DNA of 64,000 bases from Acidobacterium sp. S8 (GTDB lineage: Bacteria; Acidobacteriota; Terriglobia; Terriglobales; Acidobacteriaceae): positions 101,467 through 165,466 of the forward strand of contig NZ_LMUM01000028.1 of the NCBI RefSeq assembly GCF_009765985.1, read 5' to 3'. The first letter of the stretch is position 1. The number at the start of each line of letters is the position of its first letter. A program made the translations under genes and the position numbers. The notes under the pieces were generated by a model. The model saw only the letters and a program-made list of their open reading frames with translations. It had not been told where the DNA came from and made no database searches. Shown piece by piece: positions 7,547-42,012 of the stretch.

Positions 7547-7606
7547 CGATTTATTGCTGTCGAATTTCTGACCTTTCCTGCTGAAAGAGCGGAGACAGGA
7601 TGTGCT

Positions 7607-8660: not shown

Positions 8661-10319
8661 ATGGTTGCTTTCCGCAGGGTCAGGTGGTGTGTACTTCTTG
8701 TTTCCACGCTGTTCATCATCGGATGTTCGAAACCCGGCCCGCTAAACATATCGTTCACGCAATCCTCTCTTACCGTCGAGGCATACGACTTCGTAGAAGT
8801 CACCGCGAATGTCTCCAGGCCGCGCGCGGCCAACCCTTTTACAGACGCTTCCTTGCATGGCTGGTTTGAGGCTGCAGATGGCAGCAGGCGTTGGAATGTA
8901 GAAGGCTTTTGCGACTCCGAAAATGGAAGTCTTTTTCGAATAAGGTTTATGCCACCGAAGGCCGGCACCTACAGATACTTCATCGAATATCGTCAGGGTC
9001 GCACTCATAGAGAATCCACCGGCACATTCACTGCTGTCGACGGCCATCGCCGCGGCCCCATTCGTGTCGATTCGAAATATCCCTGGCATTTCCAATGGGA
9101 GGGAACAGGAGAGCACTATTTTTTTAATGGGACGACAGCCTATTGGTTGATGGGATGGCAAGACGACAATGTCATTCAAGCTGCCATCGAGCGTCTCCAC
9201 AAGTTAAAGATCAATCGTATCCGCGTAACTATTGCGGGGCGCGCATTCACGCTTTATGGCGAGCCCGCGATGACCGGTCCCGCCTGGACACTCTGCATCA
9301 CCCCGTGGCCGGCGAAGAATGCTGAAGACATCTACCAGCCTGGATTCGATTACACGCGCTTTGACGTCTCGTATTGGCAAAGGTTCGAAAGAGCACTCCG
9401 CTACGCACGTGAACGCGACATGATCGTTTCGCTGGTGCTCGATATGAACGATGGCGTGGTTCATCCCAAAGCCGGAAGCGACGATGAGCGCCGGTTCATT
9501 CAGTATGCGGTGAATCGCTTCGGCGCTTATTCGAATATCACCTGGGATTTGGGCGATGACCTCGACCGCTATCGGAATGTGTGGTGGACCCATCGTACCG
9601 GCATGCTGATTAACGAATGGGATCCCTATAAGCATCTCGCCACCAGTCATCCGATAAAGAACACGCATCAGGACCGCACCTCCGACTGGTTCAGCTTCAC
9701 TTCATTTCAGGAGTGGTCAAGAGATCAGCACGCCTTCATGCTCGGCGAGCGAGAGCAACAGGAGAAGCTGGGCAGAATCATTCCTCAAACCAATGAGGAA
9801 TATGGATATGAGGATCACTACCCGTTATGGGGTCCGCCTCCGCCGGAAGAAAATGCAGATACTCTACGCCGCACTGCCTGGGATATAGCGATGGCAGGAG
9901 GCTATGGGACGACAGGAGAAACAGCGAAGCGGGGCACAAATATCTGGCCGGATACGGGCGGTGGCTGGCTGAACGGCCGTGGAGACGACACCATGACCAT
10001 GCTCAAGGGCTATGGATACATGGTCGACTTTTTCACCAGCTTTGAATGGTGGAAGACGAACCCGCACGATGAATTAGTGAACAGCGGGAACTATTGCCTG
10101 GCGGATGCAGGCAACACGTACGCTGTCTATCTCCCGAAGGGCGGCCGAGCGCACATCAAGCTGCAATCGGGGAAATACACTGTCCGATGGTTCGACGCGC
10201 AGACTGGTGAGTGGAGTCCTGAGCAGGAGATACAGACGGGCAGTATGTGGGATTCACCGTCATCACCCGATGCAGGCGATTGGGCTCTCCTCCTGCGCCG
10301 TTTATCTTCAGGCCATTAA
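8661..10319 (+). CDS. Lipoprotein glycoside hydrolase (DUF5060 + DUF4038-like)
   Basis: A 552-residue exported protein. I take ATG 8661, directly after the upstream TAA, because it gives a compact signal peptide with lipobox FIIGC (Cys22); a GTG at 8634 would also be in frame. After the lipobox comes a beta-sandwich domain of about 95 residues (FVEVTANVSRPRAANPF..., DUF5060-like). A TIM-barrel-like domain follows, with KYPWHFQWEGTGEHYFFNGT, FNRIRVT-type strands, the motif ITWDLGDDLDRY and PQTNEEYGYED, as in the DUF4038 group of putative glycoside hydrolases. The acidic residues in the last two motifs are candidate catalytic residues. As the last gene of the cluster it may trim or degrade the exported polysaccharide. 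Confidence 0.8.
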   Translation: MVAFRRVRWCVLLVSTLFIIGCSKPGPLNISFTQSSLTVEAYDFVEVTANVSRPRAANPFTDASLHGWFEAADGSRRWNVEGFCDSENGSLFRIRFMPPKAGTYRYFIEYRQGRTHRESTGTFTAVDGHRRGPIRVDSKYPWHFQWEGTGEHYFFNGTTAYWLMGWQDDNVIQAAIERLHKLKINRIRVTIAGRAFTLYGEPAMTGPAWTLCITPWPAKNAEDIYQPGFDYTRFDVSYWQRFERALRYARERDMIVSLVLDMNDGVVHPKAGSDDERRFIQYAVNRFGAYSNITWDLGDDLDRYRNVWWTHRTGMLINEWDPYKHLATSHPIKNTHQDRTSDWFSFTSFQEWSRDQHAFMLGEREQQEKLGRIIPQTNEEYGYEDHYPLWGPPPPEENADTLRRTAWDIAMAGGYGTTGETAKRGTNIWPDTGGGWLNGRGDDTMTMLKGYGYMVDFFTSFEWWKTNPHDELVNSGNYCLADAGNTYAVYLPKGGRAHIKLQSGKYTVRWFDAQTGEWSPEQEIQTGSMWDSPSSPDAGDWALLLRRLSSGH

Positions 10320-10327
10320 ACAAGAGT

Positions 10328-10370
10328 GATTGCAGGTGCTGTCCGTGTTCTCAAACGAGCACCTGCAATC
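10328..10370. repeat. Perfect 13-bp inverted repeat, first of two hairpins
   Basis: Arms GATTGCAGGTGCT (10328-10340) and AGCACCTGCAATC (10358-10370) are perfect complements around a 17-base loop. It begins 8 bases after the hydrolase stop codon and lacks a U tract, so it is more likely an mRNA 3'-end stabiliser or a backup terminator for the opposite strand than a complete terminator. Confidence 0.6.
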
Positions 10371-10396
10371 CTATTCAGTTGCCTTCCCCTGCAATG

Positions 10397-10455
10397 GAGA
10401 GGTGCGTGCCGAGCTTTCCGAACCTGAAAAGCTCAAACACGCACCTCTCTTTTTT
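10397..10455 (+). terminator. Rho-independent terminator of the polysaccharide operon
   Basis: A 12-bp stem, GAGAGGTGCGTG (10397-10408) against CACGCACCTCTC (10438-10449), encloses a second nested pairing (GAGCTTTC with GAAAAGCTC). It is followed immediately by six T residues on the + strand. It closes the + strand cluster 15 bases before the convergent gene ends. Confidence 0.85.
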
Positions 10456-10469
10456 ATTTCTAACCAACA

Positions 10470-13400
10470 TCACGGAACAGAGGCAGTAGTCACATTCGAT
10501 GGAGAACTCTCCACGCCTGTGGCATCGACACTCGTTACATAGTAGCTGTAAGTGGTGCCGCTCTGAACTGTGTTGTCCGCGTACGTTGTCGCGGTTTCTA
10601 CCGAGGAAGTCAGCAGCGAATACGTCGTGCTGCTTCCCGTTGCCCGGTATACGTGGTAGCCGACAACCGGTACAGGAGAACTGCTCGGTGCATTCCAGCT
10701 CACATCTACCTCGTGCTGTACTGCTTCGCCGGTGCCGCTCAAGCTCACCGCTGGCACAGCGTTTGCGGTTGAATTGCTGTTGATGGCCAGCGTACCCGAT
10801 GCTGCGCCCGCCGTTGTCGGTGAGAACACCACATCAAGAGTTACCGTCTGACCCGGGCTGAGCGTAAGGGGGAAGCTTGCTCCGGACACACTGAAGCCCG
10901 TTCCAGTAACGTTCACAGCGTTGATCGTGACTGAAGCGGAACCGCTGGACATCAGCGTAAGTGAAGCTAACCCTGAGGATCCTACGTTGACATCGCCGAA
11001 ACTCAGGCTGGTCGCACTTGCCAATAATCCCGGCGTTGTTGCGTCACCTGTCCCACTCAATGCGACAGAGTTTGTCGCATTCGTAGAAGAGTCGCTGGCG
11101 AAACTCATCGTGCCCGTTGAGGCTCCTGCAGCCGTTGGAGCGAACGTAACCTCCAGGGTCAGAACCTGGAGCGGTCCGAGCGTAATCGGGAAGCTTGCGC
11201 CACTAAAGCTGAAGCCGTTCCCGCTTATGTTTCCGGAATTTATCGTGACCGGCGCGGTACCTATCGAGGTCAACACCAGCCCTTGAGTTGATGAAGATCC
11301 AACCGCGACATCGCCGAAGTTTAAACTGCCGATACTGAGCGAAAGAGTAGGTATGGTTGTAGCCTCACCCGTTCCGCTCAAGCCAACAGCAGCTGTGGTA
11401 TTTGTTGAAGAATTACTTTGGATTGTGAGTTGACCGGACGCCCCCCCGGCAGATGCCGGATCGAATGTCACCTGCAACGTCACTGTTTGCTGCGGATCAA
11501 GTGTGAGCGGGAAGTTGGCACCTGACACACTGAAGCCCGAGCCCGTGATATTTACTGAGTTCACCGTCACTGTCGCCGTACCCGTCGAAGTCAGTGTCAG
11601 TGGCTGTGTCGAAGACGATCCTGTCGTGACATCGCCAAAGCTCAGACTGGCTGCGCTTAGTGACAGCTGCGGACTGGGAGCAGGCGTTCCCGTGCCGGTA
11701 AGCGTGACTGCGGCCAGAGAATTCGTTGCCGAATTACTGTTGATTGTGACAGCACCTGACGAACTTCCCGTCTGGGTAGGATCAAACGTCAACTGCACCG
11801 TGACTGCCTGCTGCGGGTTCAGAGTGAGCGGGAAGGTAGCACCCGACACGCTGAAGCCCGGCCCTACGACCGGCGCCGAGTGAACAACGACCGGCGCTGT
11901 ACCTGTGGAGGTAAGCGTCAGCGGTTGGGTAGACGACGAGCCAACAGTTATATCTCCGAAACTCAGGCTGGCCGCACTCAGCGACAATTGCGGACTCGTT
12001 GCCGCTACGGCCGTTCCGGTGAGATTGATCACCGAAGTGGCGTTCGTTGCCGAGTTGCTGTTAATTGTCACTGTTCCGGTGTCAGAGCCCGTGGCCCCAG
12101 GCGCATACTGCACTTGCAGTGTGACCGATTGGTTCGGATTCAGAGTTAGAGGGAATGTTTGATCTGCAATGCTGAAGGCTTGCCCGTCAACCGAGATCGA
12201 GTTGATGACGACGGGATTTGTTCCAGTCGAGGAGAGAGTCAGCGGTTGTGTCGAAGCTGAACCTGCCGTCACGTTGCCGAAGGTCATGCTCGAGGGATTA
12301 ATAGTGAGTTGAGAGATGTTGGCGTTGGGCGCAGAGGCTACGCCTGTGCCCGTGAGCACAACGCTTGACGTGCTGGTTGTCGCAGAGTCCGATTGTATGG
12401 AAAGTGAGCCCGTGTAACCGCTCGCTGCTGTCGGGGCAAATTGAACATTGAACGTGACAAGCTGGCCGGGCTGCAGGGTGACAGGCAGATCCGCTCCTGA
12501 AACCGTGAACCCGTTGCCGTTGATGTTGGCCGCACTCACAGTAACAGGGCTCGTGCCGGAAGCAACCACAGTTACAGATTGTGTCGCCGTCGAGTTTACA
12601 GTCACATTACTGAAGTCCAGCTCGTTAGGCGTTACGGTCAGCTGGGGAGTTTGTGCCTCTGCTCCTGTCCCGCTGACAGGAATGGCAACAGGGTTCGCGG
12701 CATTGGAACTGACGCTCAGTGTGCTGTTGACTGTGTCAGTATCAGTTGGTCTGAAGATCACATACAGTGCCACCGTCTGGCCGGGCTGCAACGTGATTGG
12801 GAACTGAGCCTTGTACAAGGTAAAGCCCGTGCCGCTGAGTGAGGCTCCCGTAATTGTCACTGGCGCAGTTCCACTTGAGCTGAGTGTGACAGGTTGCACG
12901 GTTGCTGAACCTACCGTCACATTGTTGAAATTCAGGCTCGCAGGATTGGCTGATAACTGTGGTGTTGGTGGAACTACAGCCTGCGCCGTGCCGCTCAAAT
13001 CGACCGTCGCCGCAGAGTTTGTCGCCGAGTCGCTATCGATGGTCAGCTGCCCGGTGGCTGCTCCAGGCGAGGTGGGATCGAACTGAATCTGAAGAGTTGC
13101 CGTTTGCTGCGGATCGATCGTCAGCGGGAAGCTTGCTCCCGTAACGGTAAAGCCTGTTCCGGCAACACTGGCTGAACTGATCGTGACTGGCGCAGCTCCG
13201 GTCGAGGTGAGTGTCAACTGTTGTGTGGAAGAATCTCCCACGGTTACGTTGCCGAAGTCCAGGCTCGCCGCGCTGACAGCCAGCTGAGAAGTGGTAGCAG
13301 GGGTCGCAGTAGCGGCCAGGACTACAGCAGCCGTAGGATCGGTCTTCGAATCGCTGCTGATTGCGAGTGTGCCTTGTGTCGCGCCCGGTGTGGCCGCCTT

Positions 13401-32920: not shown

Positions 32921-33007
32921 ATGTACATTCATTGCTTTGCTTTTCGCTGGAAACCTGGAGTGAATGAAGAACAGATGGAACGCGTCGCCCGGGAGATTCA
33001 AAATTGA
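32921..33007 (+). pseudogene. Dabb (stress-responsive A/B barrel) gene, 5' half
   Basis: ATG 32921 encodes MYIHCFAFRWKPG followed by VNEEQMERVAREIQN and then a stop formed by the inserted element. This is the N-terminal beta strand and first helix of a Dabb-domain protein. Residue N28 continues exactly with LQGQIPGLIETYVG at 41806 on the far side of the 8.8-kb element. Truncated by integration and presumably non-functional. Confidence 0.85.
32996..33004. other. Left attachment core (att)
   Basis: ATTCAAAAT occurs here and at 41797-41805, each at the broken edge of the Dabb gene. Excision between the two copies would restore the codons I-Q-N-L-Q of one uninterrupted frame. The true core could be slightly shorter. 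Confidence 0.8.
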
Positions 33008-33072
33008 CAGAGTTTTATTTCTTGGTGGTTTCAAAACCGCTTCAAAAGTCAATAAAATCAACGACTTAAAAA

Positions 33073-34329
33073 TTATTGGATGGTCGGCCATTCATTTTTG
33101 ACACCCACTTTGACACCCACTGGAATTTCGGCACCCACTTTGACACCCGCTTTTAGCCTCGACGAGTACCGGTCGTTCACCTTCTGGAGACCCTCACGCA
33201 TGGCATCCGTTTTACCGCGCATGTAGAACTTTGCCGTGATCTGGAAGTTCGAGTGACCGAGGACCGTCTGGATCACCTTCAGGTCGACGCCTGCGTTCTG
33301 CAAGATGTCCGCGGTCGTGTGCCGAAGGTCATGGAAACGGATGGCTGCGATCCTGTCAGGGCTGAACCTGGCTGCTGCCATTTGCTTTTTTAGGGTTACC
33401 AGAGGTTCTTCAGACATGACCCGATGGCCGTGCCTCGATGTGAAGATATACCCTTCGTCCTGCTTCCACTTGGAGCCGGCAGCCAAACGTTCGGCCTGTT
33501 GGCGGTCCCGTCTACGCTTCAGCGCTTCTGCTGCAATGGGCATCAGCGGTATGGTGCGGTCAGAGGCTTCTGACTTCACGCCGAGCTTGACCACGCCCTC
33601 ACCCTTGACGCGCTGCAGTACTTCGCTCACTGTCAGGAGATTCGCTTCGAAGTCGATCTTCGACCATTGCAGGCCGATGACCTCGCCGCTTCGCAGACCC
33701 TGAAACAAACCCATGTAGAAAAAAGCCTCGAACCGGTGATCGCGCACCGCGTCGAGAAGCGCAATCGATTCGGCCTCGGTCAGCGGATGGGTTTGGTATT
33801 TCTTCTGTTTCGGCGGCTGCGCGTTTTTCGCCACGTTGCGGTCGAGAATCTCCCACTTGATTGCACTGGTCAGGGCGGTTTTCAGAGTCGCGTTGAGGTT
33901 CTTTATCGTCGTCGGACTCGGCACGTTCCGGGCAACCTCGTCGAGCAGGTCCTGCACATGCTTTGGTTGTAGCTTGTCCAGTCGAATGTTCCAGATCGCC
34001 GCCTTATAGTTCCGGTTCAGTAGATGAACTCTTACGTTCTGCTCATAGTTGCGATAGGTGCCGGGCGCCTTGTTGGTTTTTACGAAGGGCAGCCAAGAAT
34101 TAAGAAACGACTCGACTGTGTGGTTCTGATTCAACGCATGACGACCACCGCGCTCAAATTTCTTTCGTAAGTTCTTGACCTCTTGCAAGACTTCTGCCGC
34201 TGTTGGCCTCGTCACGTATACGCGCTTACCGGCGAGTCGGATCTTTGCCTGATAGTTTCCACTCGCCAGTTTCTTCGGCTTCGAGCCTTCGCCATTGCCG
34301 CGTTTATATCCCGTCCTGTCCTCTGTCAT
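33073..34329 (-). CDS. int: Tyrosine recombinase (phage-type integrase)
   Basis: A 418-residue integrase catalysing site-specific insertion and excision of the element. The N-terminal arm-binding domain (residues about 20-60, SGNYQAKIRLAGKRVYVT) is followed by a SAM-like core-binding domain (70-170) and the catalytic domain with all active residues: Arg213 (GLRSGEVIGLQW), Lys252, His333 and Arg336 (FHDLRHTTADIL), His359 (VLGHSNFQIT) and nucleophile Tyr369. The C-terminal tail is an unusual run of VGVK-type repeats, because the DNA there is made of GACACCCACT repeats that probably serve as recombinase arm sites. Its 3' end is 69 bases from the left core. It overlaps the upstream RHH gene by ATGA. 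Confidence 0.95.
   Translation of the reverse strand: MTEDRTGYKRGNGEGSKPKKLASGNYQAKIRLAGKRVYVTRPTAAEVLQEVKNLRKKFERGGRHALNQNHTVESFLNSWLPFVKTNKAPGTYRNYEQNVRVHLLNRNYKAAIWNIRLDKLQPKHVQDLLDEVARNVPSPTTIKNLNATLKTALTSAIKWEILDRNVAKNAQPPKQKKYQTHPLTEAESIALLDAVRDHRFEAFFYMGLFQGLRSGEVIGLQWSKIDFEANLLTVSEVLQRVKGEGVVKLGVKSEASDRTIPLMPIAAEALKRRRDRQQAERLAAGSKWKQDEGYIFTSRHGHRVMSEEPLVTLKKQMAAARFSPDRIAAIRFHDLRHTTADILQNAGVDLKVIQTVLGHSNFQITAKFYMRGKTDAMREGLQKVNDRYSSRLKAGVKVGAEIPVGVKVGVKNEWPTIQ
33098..33150. repeat. Left-end GACACCC direct repeats
   Basis: Three copies of TTTGACACCC[AC]C-type words plus one GGCACCCACT variant lie inside the integrase 3' end, 95-150 bases from the left core. Two similar words occur near the right end. 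They are likely arm-type binding sites. Confidence 0.6.
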
Positions 34330-34523
34330 CGGGTCGACCTTTCTGTTTTATCTAACGGCACTGGCTTCGCCTCGAGCGCGTGGCGCATAAGCCACCGTGC
34401 AGTTTCGCTCTGTGAAGTGAAGCGGTGTTTGAATCGAAAATTCTCGATTTGCTTGGCAAGCTCTGCGTCCACGTAGATGTGGATCATTTTCATTGGTTCC
34501 GGTTTTGGTTTCTGTTTTGGCAT
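34326..34523 (-). CDS. Ribbon-helix-helix protein coupled to integrase
   Basis: 65 residues. After a Lys/Pro-rich lead, MIHIYVDAELAKQIENFRF and TSQSETARWLMRHALE form the beta strand and two helices of an Arc/CopG-type RHH DNA-binding protein. It overlaps the integrase start by 4 bases (ATGA) and so probably autoregulates int or helps build the recombination complex. The start may be ATG 34523, or ATG 34493 behind GGAACCA. Confidence 0.75.
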   Translation of the reverse strand: MPKQKPKPEPMKMIHIYVDAELAKQIENFRFKHRFTSQSETARWLMRHALEAKPVPLDKTERSTR

Positions 34524-34531
34524 ATAGCCCC

Positions 34532-34537
34532 ATTATA
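34532..34537 (-). promoter_or_regulatory. Candidate -10 box of the RHH-integrase operon
   Basis: A perfect TATAAT on the - strand lies only 8 bases before ATG 34523 and sits in an A/T palindrome-like stretch (TATACGTTATA) suitable for an RHH operator. If used, the mRNA would be leaderless at 34523 or have a short leader to ATG 34493. No good -35 is visible. Confidence 0.4.
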
Positions 34538-34818
34538 TACGTTATAGGTGCCACAGGTCGGAATGCTGAAGGTGGGCGAAACAACTATGCGCCAAACTTG
34601 TACCCATCCGCAAATATCGCCTGTGGAAAACAAGCGCTTTCTTCAGCTTTTTTAGGAGTGCGAAATTTTCCATATCGACCGGAATTTTCTATACAGTGCG
34701 ATATTTTTAGCGAATCTGGGGTCGTTTGGGACACCTGCGACCCGCAAGCAGCTAACTCGAAAAGTCGATGTCGTAAAACTATTCACAACGGCATTGTGAG
34801 ATGGAGGTTACGCATCCG

Positions 34819-35106
34819 ATGAAACGCAATAACAACGCTGATCTAACCAAGCACGCTACCGCGGTGCTAGAAGCAAAGCCACAACCAGAGCCGAAGAGAA
34901 TGCGTCGCAGAAAAGACCCTCAGCTGGAATTCTGCTTGACGCCCCGCCAGGTTGCGCGCGACTGCGGATTCGGAGTCAGCAACACCTATCGAATGCTGGC
35001 GCAGGGCATCCTGCCTTCGATTCGTGTAGGAAATCGCTATTTTGTTCCTCGCTTGGCTCTGGCGAGATGGTTGGAGAATTGCGGTCGGATGTCACAGCAG
35101 CAGTAA
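34819..35106 (+). CDS. Excisionase-like HTH protein (MerR/Xis fold)
   Basis: A 95-residue basic protein. FCLTPRQVARDCGFGVSNTY and GILPSIRVGNRYFVPRLALARWL form the winged helix-turn-helix typical of excisionases/AlpA-type regulators (HTH_17). The basic N-terminus (PKRMRRRKD) would contact DNA. ATG 34819 follows GGAGG (11 bases away); an in-frame ATG at 34801 lacks an SD. Transcribed divergently from int-RHH, as expected for a directionality factor or early-gene activator. Confidence 0.75.
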   Translation: MKRNNNADLTKHATAVLEAKPQPEPKRMRRRKDPQLEFCLTPRQVARDCGFGVSNTYRMLAQGILPSIRVGNRYFVPRLALARWLENCGRMSQQQ

Positions 35107-35269
35107 GACAAAGGGACGCTCCAGCGTGCCGTTAGAGGCGCAGAGCTAAACGATCAAACACCTGAACTTTTCCAAAACGAAGAAAAGCGGTTTCCCTTAG
35201 TTGGCATAGGCGGACATGAAAAAGCCGCCAGCAATAATGCCGACGGCTTAGACACCAGTGGAGGATGTC

Positions 35270-35359
35270 ATGAACCCTTGCCAACAGATTACGCCTGTTC
35301 CTTACGTCGCGCTCCAAAAAAGTGATGCCACGCACCACAGAAATAGCGGTGCGCGATGA
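35270..35359 (+). CDS. 29-residue ORF coupled to the replication-like gene
   Basis: MNPCQQITPVPYVALQKSDA and nine more residues. It has a near-perfect SD (GGAGG, five bases from ATG 35270) and its TGA overlaps the next ATG (ATGA at 35356-35359). The downstream gene lacks its own strong SD, so this tiny ORF probably drives its translation by coupling. No function was recognised. Confidence 0.55.
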   Translation: MNPCQQITPVPYVALQKSDATHHRNSGAR

Positions 35360-36333
35360 AGCGTGAAGCGCCCACGAACACGAAGTTAAAGCGGCTGTGC
35401 TGGATGCTCGATCTTCCTCTCTACGTGGTGGTCGGCATTCTCGAGCTCCTGTGGCATATGACGGCGCGTGAACGGCCAAGAGGCGATATCGGCAATAACC
35501 ACAGCGACGAAGACATTGCCCTGGGCATCGATTATCGAAATGATCCGACCAAGCTGATTGAGGCACTCGTGGAGTGTCGCCTGTTAGATCGTCATCCGAA
35601 ATACCGCCTCGTGGTTCACGATTGGAACGAGCATGCCGAGGACTCGATAGACATCAAGCTGGCACGCGCAGTGCTCACCTATGCAAGCGGTCATTGGCCA
35701 CGCATGACGCGACTCAACAAGAACGAACGCAAGCAACTGGAGCCGCAATTCAGAGACAAATACGGGTCACGTCCGGATGCAAAAATGCATGAGCAAATCG
35801 AGCGTGCGCACGACGAGCGCACAAAAGCGCACGAAACACCACTACCAAGCCTTGCCTTGCCTTGCCTTACCTTGCCTTTGCCAAACCAGAACCAAGACAC
35901 ACACGCGCCGCTGGTGCGGCGCAATGCATCGTCTGGCGACGAGTCGGCTGGTGCCGACGAAACGCACACGTCTGGCGACGTGTCGAGTGTGTGTGTCCTT
36001 TCTTCACAGCCGCTAGAACAAAATACAGAAGGCGTCTTTGAATCAATCATTCAAACATGGAACAACAACTGCCTTCCAGAGTTCCGACAGGTGAAAGACA
36101 CACCGACGCGCAGGAACTTTCTACGAATCTGCATCAAGCGCCACAAACTGACGCCGGCGATGATGCTTGAGGCAGTTCGGTATTTGAAGAGTACTTACGG
36201 TTCCGGATTGACCTTCGACCAGCTGATCCAGCACGACACCATCGTCAAAACACTTGAGAAAGCGGCGTATAGAAAGGCGAAGCCGATGCCGGCATTTCGC
36301 GACCTCACACTCGCCGGGAGGAAGCCACAATGA
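35356..36333 (+). CDS. Phage replication-like protein (weak homology)
   Basis: 325 residues. The N-terminal ~110 residues look like a winged-helix replication-initiator or DnaD-like domain (YVVVGILELLWHMTARERPR, then GDIGNNHSDEDIALGIDY, then YRLVVHDWNEHA). A low-complexity linker (about 160-220) follows, encoded in part by a CCTTG pentanucleotide repeat (35850-35882). The C-terminal ~100 residues (TWNNNCLPEFRQVKDTPTRR and FLRICIKRHKLTPAMMLEAV) resemble the C-terminal segment of phage replisome organisers. I infer a role in element replication. No helicase or primase motif is present. Confidence 0.6.
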   Translation: MKREAPTNTKLKRLCWMLDLPLYVVVGILELLWHMTARERPRGDIGNNHSDEDIALGIDYRNDPTKLIEALVECRLLDRHPKYRLVVHDWNEHAEDSIDIKLARAVLTYASGHWPRMTRLNKNERKQLEPQFRDKYGSRPDAKMHEQIERAHDERTKAHETPLPSLALPCLTLPLPNQNQDTHAPLVRRNASSGDESAGADETHTSGDVSSVCVLSSQPLEQNTEGVFESIIQTWNNNCLPEFRQVKDTPTRRNFLRICIKRHKLTPAMMLEAVRYLKSTYGSGLTFDQLIQHDTIVKTLEKAAYRKAKPMPAFRDLTLAGRKPQ

Positions 36334-36611
36334 CCAAGAGCAACATGATTTCGTCTGTAAACAACCTGTCGGTAGCGGTCGAGAATGGTGAAGTCGTGCT
36401 TGAGCAAGATGGCTTCGATAGGAACGTCGAGTTCACATGTAACCGCATCAGCGTCACCGCGCAGCAAGTAGCGCAGCTCGTCGAATCTCTGTTGGAGGCC
36501 GCAGCTGAAATCGGTGAGAGCGACTTCATGGAGTTTCCATGCGGTTGTTTCGCGGACCTGAAGCTGAGACGCGAAAAGAAAGCCGAGCGAGCCGCACATG
36601 CGCACAGCTGA
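36330..36611 (+). CDS. Small element protein, unknown
   Basis: 93 residues, overlapping the upstream gene by ATGA and the next by 14 bases. An acidic, Val-rich body (VAVENGEVVLEQDGF, QQVAQLVESLLEAAAEIG) ends in a basic tail. No recognised fold; expressed by coupling in the element's early operon. Confidence 0.65.
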   Translation: MTKSNMISSVNNLSVAVENGEVVLEQDGFDRNVEFTCNRISVTAQQVAQLVESLLEAAAEIGESDFMEFPCGCFADLKLRREKKAERAAHAHS

Positions 36612-36816
36612 GCAGATCGCTGAAGACAGCCGAAGGCTTTCGATCTGCGCGGCGATTGAAGCGAAGATCGCGCGGATCGCGAAGAAGCATCCTGGGCTGC
36701 CATTGCTTGAGCTTGCCGAGAAGCTGCCGGCGGATGAAGGCGAGCGGTTGTTGCAGATGATCGATGAGTTGGAGATTCAATCTCAGGAGACACGGGCGGT
36801 CGAGGTGGAGCGATGA
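36598..36816 (+). CDS. Small helical element protein, unknown
   Basis: 72 residues, almost entirely charged helix (RTAEQIAEDSRRLSICAAIE and LLQMIDELEIQSQETRAVE). It starts inside the 3' end of the preceding gene, so it is translationally coupled. Function not recognised. Confidence 0.6.
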   Translation: MRTAEQIAEDSRRLSICAAIEAKIARIAKKHPGLPLLELAEKLPADEGERLLQMIDELEIQSQETRAVEVER

Positions 36817-36837
36817 GCGCGCTAGGTTTTGGCTTAG

Positions 36838-37107
36838 GGTGAGAATCTCGCCCTAAAGTATCAGCCACCGCCTTTATGTCCTCGATCATGCGCCGCGCTG
36901 CCGCTGATCGAGCAGGAAGCAGCGCAGCGACAAGTGGAAGCTGGCAAGCATGGAAGCAAGGGTGGTCGCGGAAAGAAGAAAACCCTTACTCAAAAAGTTG
37001 AGCAAGGGTTTTCAGATCGCAACGAGACGACGGCAGCAGCCGAAGCCGCAGCGATCACTGGCACGAATCGCCAGTACGTGTCTGGCGGTAAGAGCGCGGG
37101 TCGTTAG
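36838..37107 (+). pseudogene. ParB-like/plasmid-type protein remnant without start codon
   Basis: Open from just after a TAG to TAG 37107 but with no ATG, GTG or TTG near its beginning. The readable part (LPLIEQEAAQRQVEAGKHGS, then GGRGKKKT, then AITGTNRQYVSGGKSAGR) resembles the segment of plasmid ParB-like proteins that ends in TGTNxxYVSxAK. It looks like a decayed 3' fragment. Confidence 0.5.
36979..37012. terminator. 15-bp hairpin inside the ParB-like remnant
   Basis: AAAACCCTTACTCAA (36979-36993) pairs with TTGAGCAAGGGTTTT (36998-37012), with one mismatch and a four-base loop. The arms end in TTTT on one strand and begin with AAAA, so it could terminate transcription in both directions between the early and capsid-gene blocks. 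Confidence 0.55.
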
Positions 37108-37239
37108 CAAAGCAGGGGGGGAGGGTACCTCAAATCTCTGTGGAGGGGGCCTCGGTACCACAACGGACCCCGAGTAAAAAAAATCGCAGGTTTTGGTATT
37201 TTTCTGAAAAATTGACCAGCATTTTGAGGGTTTTTCCAA
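37108..37239. other. G-rich then A/T-rich gap before the antitoxin gene
   Basis: Runs of G (37112-37145) are followed by oligo-A/T tracts. No gene or clear promoter was recognised. Confidence 0.4.
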
Positions 37240-37431
37240 ATGAGAGTAGGAGTTGCAGCCGCAAAAAGTCGCTTTTCGGAACTGCTTCGACTCGCCTCGC
37301 AAGGTCGACGCGTTGTCATCACGAAATACGGCAAACCCATCGTCCGCCTGCGTGGATTTCCGAACCAGCGGAGCCACGAGGGCGACGATCCAATTGCCAG
37401 ACTGCTAGCAAAGATCGCGCGGGATAACTGA
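37240..37431 (+). CDS. Orphan Phd/YefM-family antitoxin
   Basis: 63 residues. VGVAAAKSRFSELLRLASQG then RRVVITKYGKPIVRL is the standard N-terminal DNA-binding fold of Phd/YefM antitoxins (AKxxxSELL, VVITKxGKPxxRL). No RelE/Doc/VapC-like toxin is adjacent; the next two small ORFs do not look like toxins. It could be a lone repressor, an anti-addiction or anti-defence gene, or the survivor of a lost pair. Confidence 0.8.
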   Translation: MRVGVAAAKSRFSELLRLASQGRRVVITKYGKPIVRLRGFPNQRSHEGDDPIARLLAKIARDN

Positions 37432-37450
37432 GGGAAGGGAGTGTACGCAG

Positions 37451-37705
37451 ATGGATGATGAAATGCAATTGCAAATGTGGAGTGTCGTAAAGAGCCTCTC
37501 CGGTCTGGTGACGCGGCATCAGGAGTTGATCGCGGCGCTCTACAAGCACAATGGCGAGCTCACAGCAGCACTGGCATCGCAATTTGGCTGGGAGCCGCCA
37601 GTGACGCAGCCTGAGCCGACTGTCGATGAATTAGAGGCCGTGAAACGTGGCGTCGCCGAGTTGGAGGAGATGTTCGGCAGCGAACCCGACAAGGAGCAGA
37701 AATGA
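37451..37705 (+). CDS. Small element protein, unknown
   Basis: 84 residues, acidic, with two helical segments (MWSVVKSLSGLVTRHQELIA and PTVDELEAVKRGVAELEEMF). It overlaps the next ORF by ATGA. No domain was recognised; position upstream of the capsid gene might fit a structural or scaffold-like helper. Confidence 0.6.
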   Translation: MDDEMQLQMWSVVKSLSGLVTRHQELIAALYKHNGELTAALASQFGWEPPVTQPEPTVDELEAVKRGVAELEEMFGSEPDKEQK

Positions 37706-37914
37706 ACTCGATCACCGAACGCAATCAAGCGATGCACGCCAAAGTGAAAGCTGTGATGGATGAGTACGAAGCCTTCATCGACTTCATGCGTGCAGTAGCC
37801 ACCGCTTTCTTCGAGAGAACCGGTCGTGAGCTTCACCCGAACGAAGAGTTCCTGCCCGAAGACGAAGGACGCGCAAAAGAAATTTTGGCATCACCAACGA
37901 GAGTAGTGCAATAA
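37702..37914 (+). CDS. Small element protein, unknown
   Basis: 70 residues, acidic and helical (MHAKVKAVMDEYEAFIDFMR, PNEEFLPEDEGRAKEI). It is coupled by ATGA to the upstream ORF, and its TAA overlaps an in-frame ATG of the capsid ORF by one base (TAATG). Function not recognised. Confidence 0.6.
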   Translation: MNSITERNQAMHAKVKAVMDEYEAFIDFMRAVATAFFERTGRELHPNEEFLPEDEGRAKEILASPTRVVQ

Positions 37915-38027
37915 TGCGACAGGACACTCGCACGACGCGCCGCCAAAAGCACCCGTCGTCAGAGCCGCCCGGCCCGCTCACAGCCGCTCTACAAGGCACT
38001 GTGAAGCTAAGCATGGAGTGTCCCATC

Positions 38028-39227
38028 ATGGATAGCGAGACGAAATCCTTTCTTGAAACCATTGACAGCGCGGTAAAGGCTATCGCTGAGCAACAGCGCC
38101 AGCAGGGGCGGCAACTCGATGCGATTGACGTCGTCAACCAGCGCCGCCTTTCCGCGGCAATTCTCAACGAAGACGTTTTGCAAAAAGCACTGGCCGAAAG
38201 CGACGACTTGAGGCGCGTGATCGGCGTGAGCAAAGGCCGAGCGAGCATCCGTGTGAACGACCTGAATCAGATCCCGCTGGGCCGCAAGATGATCACCGGC
38301 ACAAGCCCGGGTATGGCGGGAACACCGGGCGTCATTGCACCGCAACAAGTAGGCACAATTGTCCCGCTGGCGCAGCGCCGTTTGTTCTTGAGGGACCTGC
38401 TCTATCGCGGCAACACGACGACAGGGAACGAGGTTTATTTCGTTCGAGAACAAAGCTTCGTGAACAGCGCTTCACCGCAGCCCGGCGAAGGCAATCTGAA
38501 AGCTGAGAGCACGATTACATTCACGACCGTTAGCCAGTCCGTTGTAACCATCGCCCATTGGCTTGCCGCGAGTCGTCAGGTGATGGACGATAGCCCCACG
38601 CTGGCCGCCTTCATTCAACAGAAACTGCTCTACGGTTTGCGTTACAAAGAAGAAGTAGAGATTCTCGCTGGCGATGGTACGGGAAATCACCTGACCGGGC
38701 TTCTCACCATCGCGGCGCAGTTCGACCCGGCGTTGCTTCCCACTGGTGCGACGACGGAAATCGACACTCTCAGAGTCGCTTTAGAACAAGTCGAATTAAG
38801 TGACGAGACGCCTGCCGGATTTTTCGTTTTGAATCCAACCGACACAGCGAAAATCGACTTGATCAAAACCACCTTCGGCACCTACGTCGTCGGTGATCCG
38901 GGTGCGCCCGCCGCGACGCAAACCCTCTGGGGTAAGCCTGTTATTTCGACGACTGCGATTTTACCGGGCACATTCTTGGCTGGCAGTTCTGAGAGCGCCG
39001 AATTGATCGATCGCATGGATGCCGTTGTCGAAATCAGTTTCGAAGATCGCGACAATTTCATTCGCAATGCCGTCACGATTTTGTGCGAAGAGCGCACCAC
39101 GCTTTGCACCTATCGGCCGAACGCATTCGTCACGGGAAGCTTCGCATCGGCGTTGTCATCGCGGCTGTCTTCACCGCTCAACAGCCCGTCGAATGGCCGA
39201 ACCTTGCCAGTGTCTCCGCAGGGGTGA
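38028..39227 (+). CDS. HK97-type phage major capsid protein
   Basis: About 399 residues from ATG 38028, which has GGAG nine bases upstream; the frame is open to ATG 37914. Residues 1-70 are a coiled-coil delta-like domain (SFLETIDSAVKAIAEQQRQQ). The core then shows IVPLAQRRLFLRDLL, FTTVSQSVVTIAHWLAASRQ, QKLLYGLRYKEEVEILAGDG, TGLLTIAAQF, FFVLNPTDTAKIDLIKT, LWGKPVISTTAILPGTFLAG and VTILCEERTTLCTYRPNAFV. This is the full P-domain/A-domain sequence of HK97-fold capsids. It should assemble into procapsids. The unusual point is that it precedes the protease and no portal or terminase is nearby. Confidence 0.93.
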   Translation: MDSETKSFLETIDSAVKAIAEQQRQQGRQLDAIDVVNQRRLSAAILNEDVLQKALAESDDLRRVIGVSKGRASIRVNDLNQIPLGRKMITGTSPGMAGTPGVIAPQQVGTIVPLAQRRLFLRDLLYRGNTTTGNEVYFVREQSFVNSASPQPGEGNLKAESTITFTTVSQSVVTIAHWLAASRQVMDDSPTLAAFIQQKLLYGLRYKEEVEILAGDGTGNHLTGLLTIAAQFDPALLPTGATTEIDTLRVALEQVELSDETPAGFFVLNPTDTAKIDLIKTTFGTYVVGDPGAPAATQTLWGKPVISTTAILPGTFLAGSSESAELIDRMDAVVEISFEDRDNFIRNAVTILCEERTTLCTYRPNAFVTGSFASALSSRLSSPLNSPSNGRTLPVSPQG

Positions 39228-39230
39228 TCG

Positions 39231-39866
39231 ATGCAGACGAAGGATTGCGCTTTCCGCGTCAAAAGCCTCGATGATGGGGCTCAAGGTTCGTTTGTTGGCT
39301 ACGGCTCGACTTACAACAACACGGACCTGGGCGGCGACGTGGTTGCGCCGGGAGCGTTCACAAAGACGCTGCAGAGCTCTGGTGGGACCATTCCTCTGCT
39401 CTGGCAGCATGATAGTCGTGAGCCTGTTGGCACTGTGAAGGCGACGGACAGCGAATATGGCCTGAAGGTTGCCGGTCAGCTGCTGATGGAGTTGCCAGTC
39501 GCACAGAAGGCGCACGCGCTTTTGAAAAGCGGCATCATTCGCGGCATGAGCATTGGCTACGACACGATCCGGTCGACCGACACACCCGATGGCGGCAGGC
39601 TGTTGCAAGAGCTCAAGTTGTGGGAGCTGTCGCTCGTCACGTTCCCGATGAACGAAGCCGCGACAGTTCTCGGTGTGAAGTCTTTGGGCGACGTCGAGAG
39701 CATATTGCGAGGTATCAGGGACGCTGGTGATCCAGAGGTCAAAGCCCATCTGCGAAAGATCGCTGCCGAGTGTAAACGGCTGTTACCGGCGGACGTGGAC
39801 GACGCAGAGCGGCGGGCAATCGCCGAGCTCGCGGCGAAGATTCGCAGTTACGTGGTGGTCCAGTGA
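39231..39866 (+). CDS. HK97-family prohead protease
   Basis: 211 residues of peptidase family U35/S78. It matures the capsid by removing the delta domain. VGYGSTYNNTDLGGDVVAPG begins the fold; catalytic His60 (LLWQHD) and Ser107 (IIRGMSIGY) are present, and LWELSLVTFPMNEAA is a family hallmark. The C-terminal ~60 residues are helical. It starts 3 bases after the capsid stop in the same reading frame, so stop-codon readthrough would fuse it to the capsid. In most HK97-like phages the protease lies upstream of the capsid gene, so the order here is reversed. Confidence 0.92.
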   Translation: MQTKDCAFRVKSLDDGAQGSFVGYGSTYNNTDLGGDVVAPGAFTKTLQSSGGTIPLLWQHDSREPVGTVKATDSEYGLKVAGQLLMELPVAQKAHALLKSGIIRGMSIGYDTIRSTDTPDGGRLLQELKLWELSLVTFPMNEAATVLGVKSLGDVESILRGIRDAGDPEVKAHLRKIAAECKRLLPADVDDAERRAIAELAAKIRSYVVVQ

Positions 39867-40096
39867 TCGTCAACCCTGAGAAGTTCGCCGAACGGCATCG
39901 CCTCATCTGCACGAACGCCGAGCGGGAGTTCGCTCGCAAGCAAGCTGATCATCGCAAGCATACGCTCGAGGCCGAGGTCCGCAGCTTGGCGGCCGATGTA
40001 GTTTTCCTGATCAAGCGAGGCAGCACGAGCCGAGCGGAAGTTGTCGCGATCCGGTGTGCGCACCTGGGTCTTAAATTAGCTAGCATCGCAAAATGA
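39863..40096 (+). CDS. Small element protein, unknown
   Basis: 77 residues from GTG 39863, overlapping the protease stop (GTGA). Basic and helical (FAERHRLICTNAEREFARKQ, EVRSLAADVVFLIKRG). Possibly a virion or DNA-binding accessory; no family recognised. Confidence 0.55.
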   Translation: MIVNPEKFAERHRLICTNAEREFARKQADHRKHTLEAEVRSLAADVVFLIKRGSTSRAEVVAIRCAHLGLKLASIAK

Positions 40097-40130
40097 CGCC
40101 TTCGTGACGATCTGCCTGTAACTCAACTCT

Positions 40131-40445
40131 TTGAGTAACAGGCTGGCGGTCGAGCAGGGCATGACGCTGCGCGCGTATGCCGACCGCATCGGCGTGAACG
40201 AGCAGACCGTTCACCACTGGAAACATGCGGCTGAGGTCGCAGTTATCGGCGCCGATAACTTTTCCAAACTGACAGGCAAGATCGAGCATCTGGTTGCGAT
40301 CCACGCCGCGCCGAAAGAGACGTGGAAGGGGTGGTCTCGAGTCACCCCGAGTTCAGGCAATGTTGGTGAAGAAAACGCTGTCGACTTACCCGACACCGTT
40401 TTATTTCCGCTGCGTATAGACCGCCAGACGCATCAGTCTTCCTGA
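40131..40445 (+). CDS. Small HTH protein, ParB-like
   Basis: 104 residues from TTG 40131, or 94 from ATG 40161. MTLRAYADRIGVNEQTVHHW is a clear helix-turn-helix, and LVAIHAAPKETWKGWSRV resembles the region following the HTH in plasmid ParB-like proteins. It may be related to the remnant at 36838-37107. It overlaps the convergent - strand gene by 13 bases. Confidence 0.55.
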   Translation: MSNRLAVEQGMTLRAYADRIGVNEQTVHHWKHAAEVAVIGADNFSKLTGKIEHLVAIHAAPKETWKGWSRVTPSSGNVGEENAVDLPDTVLFPLRIDRQTHQSS

Positions 40446-40648
40446 CAGTCCGGACAGCTTCCCACATGCCGCACCAGCGGTATCAGAGCCGCATCCAGCC
40501 GCTTCTTCAGTTCAAGGACATTCAAAGCATGCACGTGTTTCAGAACGTCGTGTGAAGCGTCCAGAAACGCGAGCGCGAGCCTGTTGCCGATGTCGCAAAA
40601 CTGGAACTCGCCGTTGAGAATGATCGGCTCATTCAGATCCATTTGCAT
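40433..40648 (-). CDS. Small protein with terminal CxxC
   Basis: 71 residues (EFQFCDIGNRLALAFLDASH, NVLELKKRLDAALIPLVRHV) ending GSCPDCQED. It overlaps the upstream zinc-ribbon gene by 20 bases, suggesting a coupled cassette. Function unknown. Confidence 0.5.
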   Translation of the reverse strand: MQMDLNEPIILNGEFQFCDIGNRLALAFLDASHDVLKHVHALNVLELKKRLDAALIPLVRHVGSCPDCQED

Positions 40649-40841
40649 CCGACCTTTCGATGGGAACTGCTGTGTTCATCGTCCCGATGCCCTTCATCGG
40701 TATCACGACGTCCTGCTTGCAGTTCGGGCAGCGCATGCGTTCGCTGTCGATGCGCAGGAGCTCGTGCGGCTGAACCTTGTAGCCGCACTCAGGGCAGGTC
40801 GTCGACAGATCGAATGATTTTGGATCGACTCTATTTCGCAT
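40629..40841 (-). CDS. Small zinc-ribbon protein
   Basis: 70 residues with two zinc knuckles: TTCPECGYKVQPHELLRI and RMRCPNCKQDVVIP. The CPxC...CPxC layout is a simple zinc ribbon for nucleic acid or protein binding. Part of a run of overlapping tiny genes on the - strand. Confidence 0.6.
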   Translation of the reverse strand: MRNRVDPKSFDLSTTCPECGYKVQPHELLRIDSERMRCPNCKQDVVIPMKGIGTMNTAVPIERSDANGSE

Positions 40842-40953
40842 GATCGGATGCTGCGGCGCGCGGCGCTGACTTCAGTTCATAGATCGCGACCAGATACCGC
40901 GTTTTCCACATTCGGTCACACTCGACACCCTGCTTACAATAATCGGCATGCAT
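40831..40953 (-). CDS. Possible 40-residue ORF, unknown
   Basis: MHADYCKQGVECDRMWKTRY and 20 more residues. It overlaps the zinc-ribbon gene start and abuts the divergent + strand gene at 40948, completing a chain of overlapping - strand ORFs. Support is only positional, and the frame stays open further upstream. Confidence 0.3.
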   Translation of the reverse strand: MHADYCKQGVECDRMWKTRYLVAIYELKSAPRAAASDHAK

Positions 40954-41184
40954 TTCCCGCAGACGTTTAACCAGATGGAAGCGGCACGATATCGCTTCGG
41001 TGGCCTTTCCGTTTGCTCCGAATGCGGAAAGAAGATCGAGTATTGGACCGCGCCGGGAGAACAGCGTGCGGCCTTCGACTTGATGGCTGGGCCGGAAAGC
41101 CCTGTCGTCAAGCATCGCTGTCACTCGCATCCTGAACCGACCGCTCGATCTGTTGCGCGCAAGGCAGCGATGGGCTGGAGATAA
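40948..41184 (+). CDS. Small Cys-containing (zinc finger-like) protein
   Basis: 78 residues. YRFGGLSVCSECGKKIEYWT then FDLMAGPESPVVKHRCHSH gives a CxxC...HxCxxH zinc site. Encoded divergently from the - strand tiny genes. Function unknown. Confidence 0.5.
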   Translation: MHFPQTFNQMEAARYRFGGLSVCSECGKKIEYWTAPGEQRAAFDLMAGPESPVVKHRCHSHPEPTARSVARKAAMGWR

Positions 41185-41207
41185 GCCCGGCGACGCGGTA
41201 AAAAATC

Positions 41208-41426
41208 GTGGTTATTCGGCTTCGAAACGGTGAAGCTGAAGACATGCCACACACAACAGAACAGCGCCTCACAGTCGACCAGACCGACGAGATTATCCGG
41301 ACCGCTTCGCCCTGGGACGGAGCTATCGAAGACTGCGAAGAGGATCGCAACGAGGTCCGCTACTTTTTCGAGACTGGCAGGACAGGACGAGTTTGCCGGC
41401 AGACCGGGACCGTCACGATCAGCTGA
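41208..41426 (+). CDS. Possible small acidic ORF
   Basis: 72 codons from GTG 41208 (or ATG 41244). The product is acidic (TVDQTDEIIRTASPWDGAIE, DCEEDRNEVRYFFETG). There is no SD and no recognised domain, so it may be spurious. Confidence 0.3.
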   Translation: MVIRLRNGEAEDMPHTTEQRLTVDQTDEIIRTASPWDGAIEDCEEDRNEVRYFFETGRTGRVCRQTGTVTIS

Positions 41427-41572
41427 CCTTCGACATCATCAGCCCACCACCGACCGGAGCCGACCAGCTCCGGTTTCTCTTGCTCCACAATGCCCGGCAA
41501 TCGCTCAGAATTGGCCTATAGGCGATTTCCTCGAAAACAGGCGACCTTTCACACCCACTGGAAATCAGAAAG

Positions 41573-41633
41573 CCGTTCTTGGCCAATCCAGATCAGGGTT
41601 TTTTGACACCCATTTGACACCCACTGGAATTGA
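41573..41633. repeat. Right-end GACACCC direct repeats
   Basis: TTCACACCCACTGGAA (from 41573), then TTTGACACCC twice ending ACCCACTGGAATT (41609-41633). The second block matches the left-end repeat at 33105-33126 apart from a short indel. It lies 165-220 bases from the right core: likely arm-type sites, or a relic of another integrase 3' end. Confidence 0.6.
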
Positions 41634-41745
41634 AACTATAGAAAATTCGTGTCAATTTGGAAAATATAGAACGTTCCATTCTGCACAGGTCGACATGTAC
41701 AAAACGTGCATGAACATTGACGATCATGCTATTCAGAACAAACAA

Positions 41746-41784
41746 AAGGCCTTGAAGCTGTCACGCCTCAAAGCCTTGTTTTTT
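41746..41784 (+). terminator. Terminator at the right end of the element
   Basis: AAGGCCTTGAAGC (41746-41758) pairs with GCCTCAAAGCCTT (41765-41777) with two mismatches, followed by GTTTTTT. It would insulate element transcription from the host gene fragment 13 bases beyond. Confidence 0.65.
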
Positions 41785-41796
41785 GTGCCCCTGAAA

Positions 41797-41805
41797 ATTC
41801 AAAAT
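41797..41805. other. Right attachment core (att)
   Basis: Second ATTCAAAAT copy, directly preceding codon L29 of the reconstructed Dabb protein. Confidence 0.8.
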
Positions 41806-42012
41806 CTTCAGGGACAGATCCCCGGATTGATCGAAACCTATGTCGGGAAAAATATTTCTCCGCGCGGACAGGGCTATACCTTTGGCGGCGTGATGAAGTT
41901 TACCGACCAGGCCAGCCTCGATGCCTACGGTCCGCACCCGCTCCATCAAGAACTGCTCGAATGGCTGGTGCCCTTAATCGATCCCATCGAGTTGGATTTC
42001 GAACCTCAATAA
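41797..42012 (+). pseudogene. Dabb (stress-responsive A/B barrel) gene, 3' half
   Basis: After the shared IQN codons it reads LQGQIPGLIETYVGKNISPR, GQGYTFGGVMKFTDQASLDA, YGPHPLHQELLEWLVPLIDP and ends IELDFEPQ. This is the rest of a Dabb-domain protein whose first 28 residues are at 32921. Joined, the protein is about 97 residues, the normal family size. Upstream the frame continues open into element DNA (for example ATG 41695), but no native start or SD exists. Confidence 0.88.

Follow-up and report, generated by a model that had tools for sequence, protein, structure and literature searches.

A likely phage satellite of Acidobacterium sp. S8 that carries its own HK97-type capsid and protease genes, and its relatives in Acidobacteriota

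A compact integrated element, here called element A, occupies positions 33,005-41,796 of the 64,000-nucleotide stretch of Acidobacterium sp. S8 DNA analyzed here (the window; contig NZ_LMUM01000028.1, our C23, positions 101,467 to 165,466, in a genome of 5.44 Mb). Element A encodes an HK97-type major capsid protein and its maturation protease inside a set of integration, excision and replication genes, and the same layout recurs in relatives across the phylum in which portal and large terminase genes were not detected. It is very likely that element A is a phage satellite, and we consider it probable that it is a satellite of a particular kind, one that builds a small shell of its own and takes the portal, the packaging motor and the tail from a helper phage.

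Element A measures 8,801 bp from core to core and is bounded by exact copies of a 9-bp attachment (att) core, ATTCAAAAT, at 32,996-33,004 (attL) and 41,797-41,805 (attR), the only two plus-strand copies in the window. It splits a host gene for a Dabb-domain protein (PF07876), the 5' part of which (32,921-33,004, plus strand) ends in the att core, with the 3' part (41,806-42,012, plus strand; PF07876, e-value (E) 3.5e-7) following the second copy; when the flanks are joined, an intact 96-aa open reading frame (ORF) results. Four genomes were searched for an empty site, namely that of strain S8 itself and the congeneric genomes G001, G002 and G003. G002 gave no match; in G001 and G003, the Dabb orthologue is unbroken (72-73% identity), and the two flanks form one contiguous alignment there, with the element absent. 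The clean ends proposed in the initial annotation of this DNA are thus borne out. Close to both ends lie GACACCCACT-like direct repeats, in a left cluster (33,096-33,155; repeat families D1/D2) that overlaps the 3' end of the integrase gene and a right cluster (41,546-41,629), which look like arm-type integrase sites and are candidates for that role.

The mobility genes comprise a tyrosine integrase of 418 aa (33,073-34,329, minus strand; PF00589, 9.2e-24), an excisionase/regulator-like helix-turn-helix (HTH) protein of 101 aa (34,801-35,106, plus strand; phrog_66, 1.4e-8; PF12728, 1.1e-8) and a replication initiation-like protein of 325 aa (35,356-36,333, plus strand; phrog_9474, 1.6e-10). 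The plus-strand shell genes follow: an HK97-type major capsid protein of ~399 aa with a delta-like domain (38,028-39,227, in an ORF that opens at 37,914), and an S78 prohead maturation protease of 211 aa (39,231-39,866). Both halves of the initial description, shell genes within an integrase, excisionase and replication framework and a lack of portal, terminase and tail genes, hold: in Pfam and PHROG scans, none of the 19 element A proteins, nor the Dabb remnant, significantly matched a family of portal, large terminase, connector or tail proteins. The possibility that portal or terminase genes hide in the small ORFs, raised at the same time, found no significant match in these scans either; a 104-aa HTH protein (40,131-40,445, plus strand; PF13384, 2.8e-4, below cut-off) gave small-terminase-like matches at E 0.03-0.07, which are non-significant and were not counted. 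Counting ATG, GTG and TTG starts on both strands, the only ORFs of more than 260 aa in element A are the integrase, the replication protein and the capsid, so the others are too short for a usual portal or large terminase (TerL). Element A has what broadly defines a phage satellite: an integrase, an excisionase/regulator and a replication gene without the full set of virion genes.

Both shell proteins look functional from their sequences and from a structure model. The capsid matches PF05065 over profile positions 4-279 of 280 (1.4e-44) and the PHROG major head protein family (1.1e-50), and its start is likely Met39 of the listed ORF (38,028), as judged by alignment to relatives. A capsid profile built from 11 members aligned to the HK97 gp5 chain that includes the scaffolding delta domain (3qpr_A) over positions 6-377 of 380 (5.7e-104). 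The element A capsid, modeled from an 85-sequence alignment, reached a mean pLDDT of 82.2 and a pTM of 0.71 (an earlier model from 11 sequences, with pLDDT 50.8, was set aside), and in Foldseek its closest structures were states of HK97 gp5 (TMt 0.81-0.93, 44-47% identity), with those of phages phiXacJX1 and D3 among them. The crosslinking residues of HK97, which we take to be K169, N356 and E363, correspond in the alignment to K196, N385 and E392 in the listed capsid ORF; this triad is invariant in 11 of 11 aligned members, and in the 85-row alignment the lysine is kept in 80 rows, the asparagine in 84 and the glutamate in 85. The protease (PF04586, 5.2e-27; PHROG head maturation protease, 2.8e-55) has His60 and Ser107, presumably the S78 catalytic pair as assigned by position, likewise invariant in all 11 aligned members. 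These residue alignments cover 11 of the 18 clean members introduced below.

A second copy of this layout, element B, resides in the same genome next to a tRNA-Pro gene, its capsid gene 41 kb from that of element A. Identity between the two capsids is 38% across the full alignment and 41% where they match, and between the two proteases 48-51%; elsewhere, A and B share stretches at 78-95% DNA identity. Searches with the capsid found matches in 2 of 61 relatives; in the sets drawn from the family, the class and the phylum, the counts were 15 of 398, 17 of 399 and 8 of 396 genomes. These sets overlap, and each includes the S8 genome. A scan of genome contigs gave 7 loci, and two IMG/VR scans yielded at least 80 loci each, with 3 in common. 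Ordinary phages are among all these loci, and the IMG/VR counts are lower bounds and not a census. The search of Acidobacteriota for syntenic islands that had been recommended with the initial annotation thus returned the same layout in 18 clean members, from Acidobacteriota genomes and one viral contig: A, B, L037, L039, L040, L041, L044, L047, L049, L051, L052, L217, L218, L219, L220, L223 and two modules in the IMG/VR contig L117. The source of L037 is the record of Acidobacteriaceae bacterium KBS 89, of the same family as the host of element A, and L039 comes from a cultured host, Edaphobacter aggregans. The remaining capsid-before-protease loci, left out of the clean set, are L045 (a duplicate of the L037 contig), L054 (clearly decayed), L094 and L145 (partial contigs with tail-like genes) and L221 (a fusion). 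Members were chosen by capsid-protease order, and the uniform order is therefore a product of selection, unlike the lack of portal and TerL.

In 17 of the 18 clean members, an integrase gene is located no more than 7.5 kb from the capsid gene (assigned by clusters, with ten of the ORFs checked by Pfam). The remaining member, L220, is a contig of 9,251 bp whose two ends overlap exactly over 95 bp; closed into a circle of 9,156 bp, it has a 407-aa capsid intact across the junction. The circle carries a RepA_C protein and a ParA-like ATPase, which points to a plasmid-like form, along with a Terminase_4-like protein just under the cut-off. A Terminase_4 protein is also present in L052, and L051 has an ORF similar to it on inspection; L218 carries an HNH gene.

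Gene order proved to be closely associated with the presence of packaging genes when capsid loci were scored with capsid, protease, portal and TerL profiles derived from the same loci. With the capsid before the protease, portal and TerL were each detected in 0 of 23 rows (22 loci, in fetched DNA), compared with 138 and 102, respectively, of 155 rows in the phage order, protease before capsid (from 154 loci, with 143 distinct capsids). Neither order includes the 19 rows in which no protease was assigned. Among rows with at least 2 kb of sequence upstream, portals were present in 0/18 versus 129/130 and TerL in 0/18 versus 102/130, and with at least 5 kb the figures were 0/18 versus 62/63 and 0/18 versus 59/63. 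The sole phage-order row without a portal given at least 2 kb upstream, L211, has TerL. For L217 and L219, the contig extends 0.7 kb 5' of the capsid, so that the upstream-portal test covers 16 of the 18 clean members, the circular L220 included.

Because the portal profile was seeded mostly from phage-order loci (seven of these and one locus of the S8 genome), Pfam PF04860 was used as an independent check in 19 genomes. Portals lay no farther than 1.5 kb from the phage-order capsids in G198, G339 (two), G295, G253, G360 and G033; none was found near the capsid-protease loci of the 19 genomes, which include 11 clean members, and five genomes (G180, G368, G427, G200 and G127) had no PF04860 portal anywhere. 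In a PHROG scan of the 118 ORFs of nine capsid-protease loci, 9 ORFs matched head, 9 protease and 8 integrase families, two matched phrog_83, and portal and TerL were absent among the best 25 of 99 families; individual PHROG scans of 30 ORFs, mostly the largest unidentified ones, gave no portal or TerL. In phage-order loci the genes are tightly packed, with median gaps of -3 bp from portal to protease and 22 bp from protease to capsid (138 rows), which indicates that the reversed order is a real rearrangement.

The known element lengths are also similar. In a search of 12 loci, the 3' end of the adjacent tRNA gene was found repeated at a distance of 9,526-10,152 bp in eight members (L039, L041, L044, L047, L049, L051, L052 and L218); for L047, a 27-bp copy would give 12,744 bp and a 26-bp copy, which was adopted, 10,152 bp. 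No credible long repeat was identified in this search for L040, L217, L219 or element B, where an assembly gap (Ns at L003 13,458-13,467), next to sequence like the right end of A, makes the right att unreadable. L037, L220, L221, L223 and L117 have no tRNA at the locus. Altogether, ten known lengths, those of A and L220 included, span 8.8-10.2 kb, a clustering from which we infer a packaging limit; phage-inducible chromosomal islands (PICIs) in general average 9.5 kb (PMC10803314). Close pairs of relatives show purifying selection, with NG86 dN/dS of 0.11-0.21 in the four capsid pairs compared and of 0.10-0.21 in the six pairs of proteases (at least 69% identity; neither A nor B involved).

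These observations weigh on whether element A is a defective prophage, that is, a remnant in which capsid and protease survive by chance. The missing portal, terminase and tail genes would be expected of such a remnant, and L054 shows that decay, named in advance as a sign of it, does occur in one relative. The recurrence of the same reduced gene set in the same reversed order in 18 clean members of similar mapped length, at different integration sites, with open capsid frames and low dN/dS in close pairs, argues against it, as do the exact ends and the empty site of element A, in which we found neither the portal and TerL of an intact prophage nor the random loss and broken genes of a decayed one. 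We regard a defective prophage as very unlikely, and the earlier view of a compact, maintained unit is well supported by the recurrent layout, similar lengths, selection among relatives and conserved crosslink and catalytic residues.

Another suggestion made at the outset was a domesticated capsid compartment, an encapsulin-like or storage shell that would serve the host or the element without packaging DNA. Encapsulin-like compartments are HK97-fold shells that hold cargo and lack a delta domain, a protease and mobile-element genes. Element A is mobile and has both a delta-like region and a protease; across the family, an integrase is kept in all clean members except one plasmid-like circle, lengths are similar, and a few members have small terminase (TerS) or HNH genes. 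No conserved cargo enzyme stood out, although no systematic cargo search was made. That no portal is encoded agrees with a compartment, and an HK97-type shell can physically exist without a portal (PMC10275583); even so, this is the least probable of the explanations weighed here.

The evolution of the capsid genes was examined in a 125-row tree with 20 satellite rows (L094, L145 and L221 included), where the satellite label changes 8 times, at least 5 of them forced by well supported branches. A single origin of the satellite capsids was tried and rejected: in a 37-row tree, forcing them into one clade lowered the log-likelihood by 311 (p-AU 4e-59). That set comprised 18 satellite rows (with L221, and without L094, L145, L220 and L054) and 19 phage rows picked by the author after the first tree was seen. 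The protease tree (120 rows, 21 satellite) is more clustered, with 5 changes, at least 3 of them forced. L040 and L218 have capsids that are 88% and proteases that are 49% identical, whereas L040 and L049, from one genome, have proteases that are 85% and capsids that are 42% identical; such mismatches imply that the two genes were exchanged separately with their order preserved. On these sequence comparisons, satellite capsids have been acquired or swapped repeatedly. The element A capsid groups with those of L040, L041 and L218 in a clade with a long stem and no phages in the sample, and several other member capsids nest among phage capsids.

Under the explanation that we favor, infection by a helper or its induction would lead element A to excise through its integrase and excisionase and to replicate from its own initiator. 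A small shell with room for about 9-10 kb would then be assembled, cleaved and crosslinked by the capsid and protease, while the terminase, the tail and a portal that is built into one vertex would come from the helper, and satellite DNA would leave in chimeric particles. The small ORFs beside the capsid, and the TerS and HNH proteins of the few members that have them, would probably adapt the borrowed machinery. Shell formation from so few genes has precedent in two papers: the HK97 major capsid protein alone, expressed from a plasmid, gives correctly shaped shells, with the portal required for virions (PMC10275583), and a study of phage D3, which examined major capsid protein and protease both in the presence and in the absence of portal, states that the HK97 pathway was worked out without portal (PMC12749128). 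Capsid and protease are therefore plausibly a sufficient shell-building set, and the genes missing from element A (portal, motor, tail) are those whose products a helper makes, which fits borrowing. The TerS-like genes of L052, L051 and, near threshold, L220, as well as the HNH gene of L218, fit redirected packaging.

The initial annotation had proposed a capsid-forming satellite that borrows portal, terminase and tails. The satellite part is supported by recurrence, the empty site and the TerS or HNH genes in a few members; the borrowing is consistent with the missing genes, from which it is deduced. A more specific formulation, on which we are evenly divided, is that the satellite builds its own shell around a portal stolen from the helper, to be filled by the helper motor, so that it would be intermediate between the capsid thieves of the PICI/P4 type and the capsid-forming PICIs (cf-PICIs), and that the reversed-order shell cassette has been reloaded several times with different phage capsids.

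The strongest competing explanation, in our estimate still an unlikely one, is capsid redirection, in which the satellite capsid and protease co-assemble with helper capsids, or disturb them, to give small hybrid shells. SaPIbov5 redirects helper assembly by means of a capsid homologue (PMC8569155), and redirection is the explanation offered by the authors for the Vibrio plasmid satellite TG93, with a Capsid E protein, a protease and a small terminase (PMC13230959); the nesting of several member capsids among phage capsids points the same way. Set against this are the self-assembly of the HK97 capsid protein (PMC10275583), the phage-free clade of the element A capsid with its long stem, and the retention of the crosslink residues, of the delta-like domain and of a dedicated protease that looks active, which together seem beyond what a redirector would need. 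Some known satellites lower the yield of their helper, and element A might instead be an interference island, with shell parts that mainly sabotage incoming phages and transfer by other means, such as generalized transduction. Repeated capsid exchange could then track the phages encountered. Similar lengths near 10 kb and the TerS or HNH genes of a few members point to packaging; we rate this improbable, if slightly above a defective prophage.

Several observations count against a satellite that builds its own shell and borrows the rest. In this purely computational analysis no helper phage, particle or excision was observed, and the small capsid size is deduced from element length alone. Three of the genomes without any PF04860 portal (G180, G368 and G427) each hold a clean member, so that a resident helper is not the rule. 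Element A has no significant TerS or HNH match in the Pfam and PHROG scans, and the selection test that had been called for, informative in close pairs of relatives, was saturated or unreliable for A itself (against L040, L041 and B) and was not used there. The clean member L047 has, downstream of the protease, a 319-aa ORF (7,448-8,407) that matches PHROG tail (5.4e-29) and virion structural (9.1e-26) families; a 248-aa ORF of the odd locus L221 matches a tail assembly chaperone family (3.6e-22); and in the partial IMG/VR contigs L094 and L145, capsid and then protease are followed by genes that are tape-measure-like on inspection. Together with a weak spanin-like match in L218 (0.006), these cases suggest that members may vary in other cargo. 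L094 and L145, which are perhaps phages or another kind of satellite sharing the order, also show that gene order alone is insufficient to define the group.

A resident helper was sought in the S8 genome and rejected: its sole PF04860 portal, on contig C29, belongs to a conserved TerL-portal module beside purE/purK, with no recognizable complete prophage. The module (L008 16,418 to L009 8,246; TerL phrog_2, portal PF04860) has no integrase among the ORFs scanned. Its TerL, portal and three neighboring genes have matches in 7 of 7 other Acidobacteriaceae genomes, picked for such a portal, with purE/purK present in 5 of the 7, and it is possibly a vertically kept locus resembling a gene transfer agent.

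Related kinds of satellite have already been published, and element A is a variant among them. Like cf-PICIs, it has its own capsid and maturation protease. cf-PICIs, which use helper tails and are about 14 kb long on average, additionally have genes for portal, connectors, TerL, TerS and HNH (PMC10690885 and PMC10803314); element A, at 8.8 kb, has no recognizable portal, connector or TerL and only non-significant TerS-like matches, such TerS or HNH genes being carried by L052, L220 (under the cut-off) and L218. Its capsid model is distantly similar to that of the cf-PICI EcCI2, at 15-16% identity. The phiRv1-like elements of mycobacteria are closer in content: phiRv1 and phiRv2 are 9.3 and 10.8 kb long, and in the related phiBN42_1 the products with an assigned function are an integrase, an excisionase, a primase, a prohead protease and a major capsid protein (PMC3986857). 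In PMC10654092, the phiRv elements are regarded as candidate PICIs, otherwise dissimilar candidates have related capsids, and the authors' criterion is an integrase plus a major capsid gene, both of which element A has. In phiBN42_1, the protease is listed before the capsid (PMC3986857); the host belongs to another phylum, and some of the listed mycobacterial elements retain portal and terminase; the comparison of element A with them is by published description only.

The Vibrio phage-inducible satellite-plasmid (PISP) TG93 is an episome with a capsid, head maturation protease and small terminase in which no integrase was detected, one of two episomes, of 15.8 and 11.1 kb, in that study (PMC13230959). 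It most resembles the circular member L220, and differs from element A in its Capsid protein E, in place of PF05065, and in its Vibrio host. PISPs are episomal with ParA/RepA, a description that fits only L220 among the members and not the integrated element A. Satellites of the SaPIbov5 Ccm type also carry a homologue of a phage capsid (PMC8569155); Ccm redirects the helper capsid, whereas element A has a full capsid with a delta-like domain and a protease. Closest in fold and sequence are the HK97 gp5/gp4 head genes, with 44-47% identity over the core and aligned crosslink residues. In HK97, the order is portal-protease-capsid and the head genes are part of a complete phage with a portal, unlike those of the portal-less element A. 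We found no report of satellites of this kind in Acidobacteriota in the accessible text of the open-access literature, and the present elements extend capsid-bearing satellites to that phylum. If the proposed mechanism is true, the satellite shell must accept a foreign portal, and the coupling of portal, shell size and capsid identity would become testable with a two-gene shell. The marks by which to search for such elements, which are easily filed as defective prophages, are an integrase, a capsid before the protease, no portal and a length of about 10 kb.

The small ORFs 5' of the capsid were compared across members. Profiles of two families seeded from members, fam1 and fam2, were run against 18,862 ORFs. 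They identified ORFs that start 380-850 bp 5' of the capsid start in 9 of the 18 clean members and none in the phage-order loci that were covered. The small ORFs that element A has in this position fall outside both families: an 84-aa helical ORF (37,451-37,705, plus strand), by its position a candidate assembly or size factor, which gave no match to either profile and had a heptad score equaled by 7 of 200 shuffles, and, directly 5' of the capsid, a 70-aa ORF (37,702-37,914, plus strand) with relatives in L117 and L219. A strict coiled-coil hallmark was rejected, the heptad signal being weak (fewer than 10 of 200 shuffles reached the score in just 5 of 18 ORFs); given this and the failure of fam1 and fam2 to cover element A, only the description "small helical ORFs upstream" was retained.

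The remaining genes of element A are all short. On the minus strand, a repressor-like protein of 65 aa (34,326-34,523; phrog_4738 transcriptional repressor, 7e-6) adjoins the integrase, and a zinc-ribbon-like protein of 70 aa (40,629-40,841) had weak zinc-ribbon matches, none over the cut-off among the matches listed. On the plus strand, a 93-aa ORF (36,330-36,611) that overlaps the stop of the replication gene matched no family, and a 72-aa ORF (36,598-36,816) is common to element B and L044 (91% DNA identity to B over 137 columns). A 77-aa ORF (39,863-40,096) overlaps the protease stop; on inspection, element B has an ORF like it in the corresponding position. Toward the right end, a cysteine-containing ORF of 78 aa (40,948-41,184) lies in a region common to element B (78% DNA identity over 491 columns), and a 72-aa ORF (41,208-41,426) has relatives in B, L037 and L044 by sequence comparison. 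A Phd/YefM antitoxin-like protein of 63 aa (37,240-37,431; PF02604, 5.5e-6, 26.5 bits, below the cut-off of 29.8) is also found in element B (L003 9,134-9,337), in both cases without an evident toxin partner.

Some loci outside or at the margin of the clean set have other arrangements. The capsid genes of L053, L057 and L059 are distant ones, and no protease or portal was detected within 20 kb of them; in L053, integrase and excisionase-like genes are close by. In L221 (8,636-10,720), the capsid comes last in a 694-aa ORF whose N-terminal part is unrelated, with a serine-integrase-like gene upstream and the tail-assembly-chaperone-like ORF downstream. The viral contig L117 holds two diverged capsid-protease modules (421-1,587 and 9,992-11,140) that are oppositely oriented and separated by two integrase genes; the contig possibly contains two adjoining satellites.

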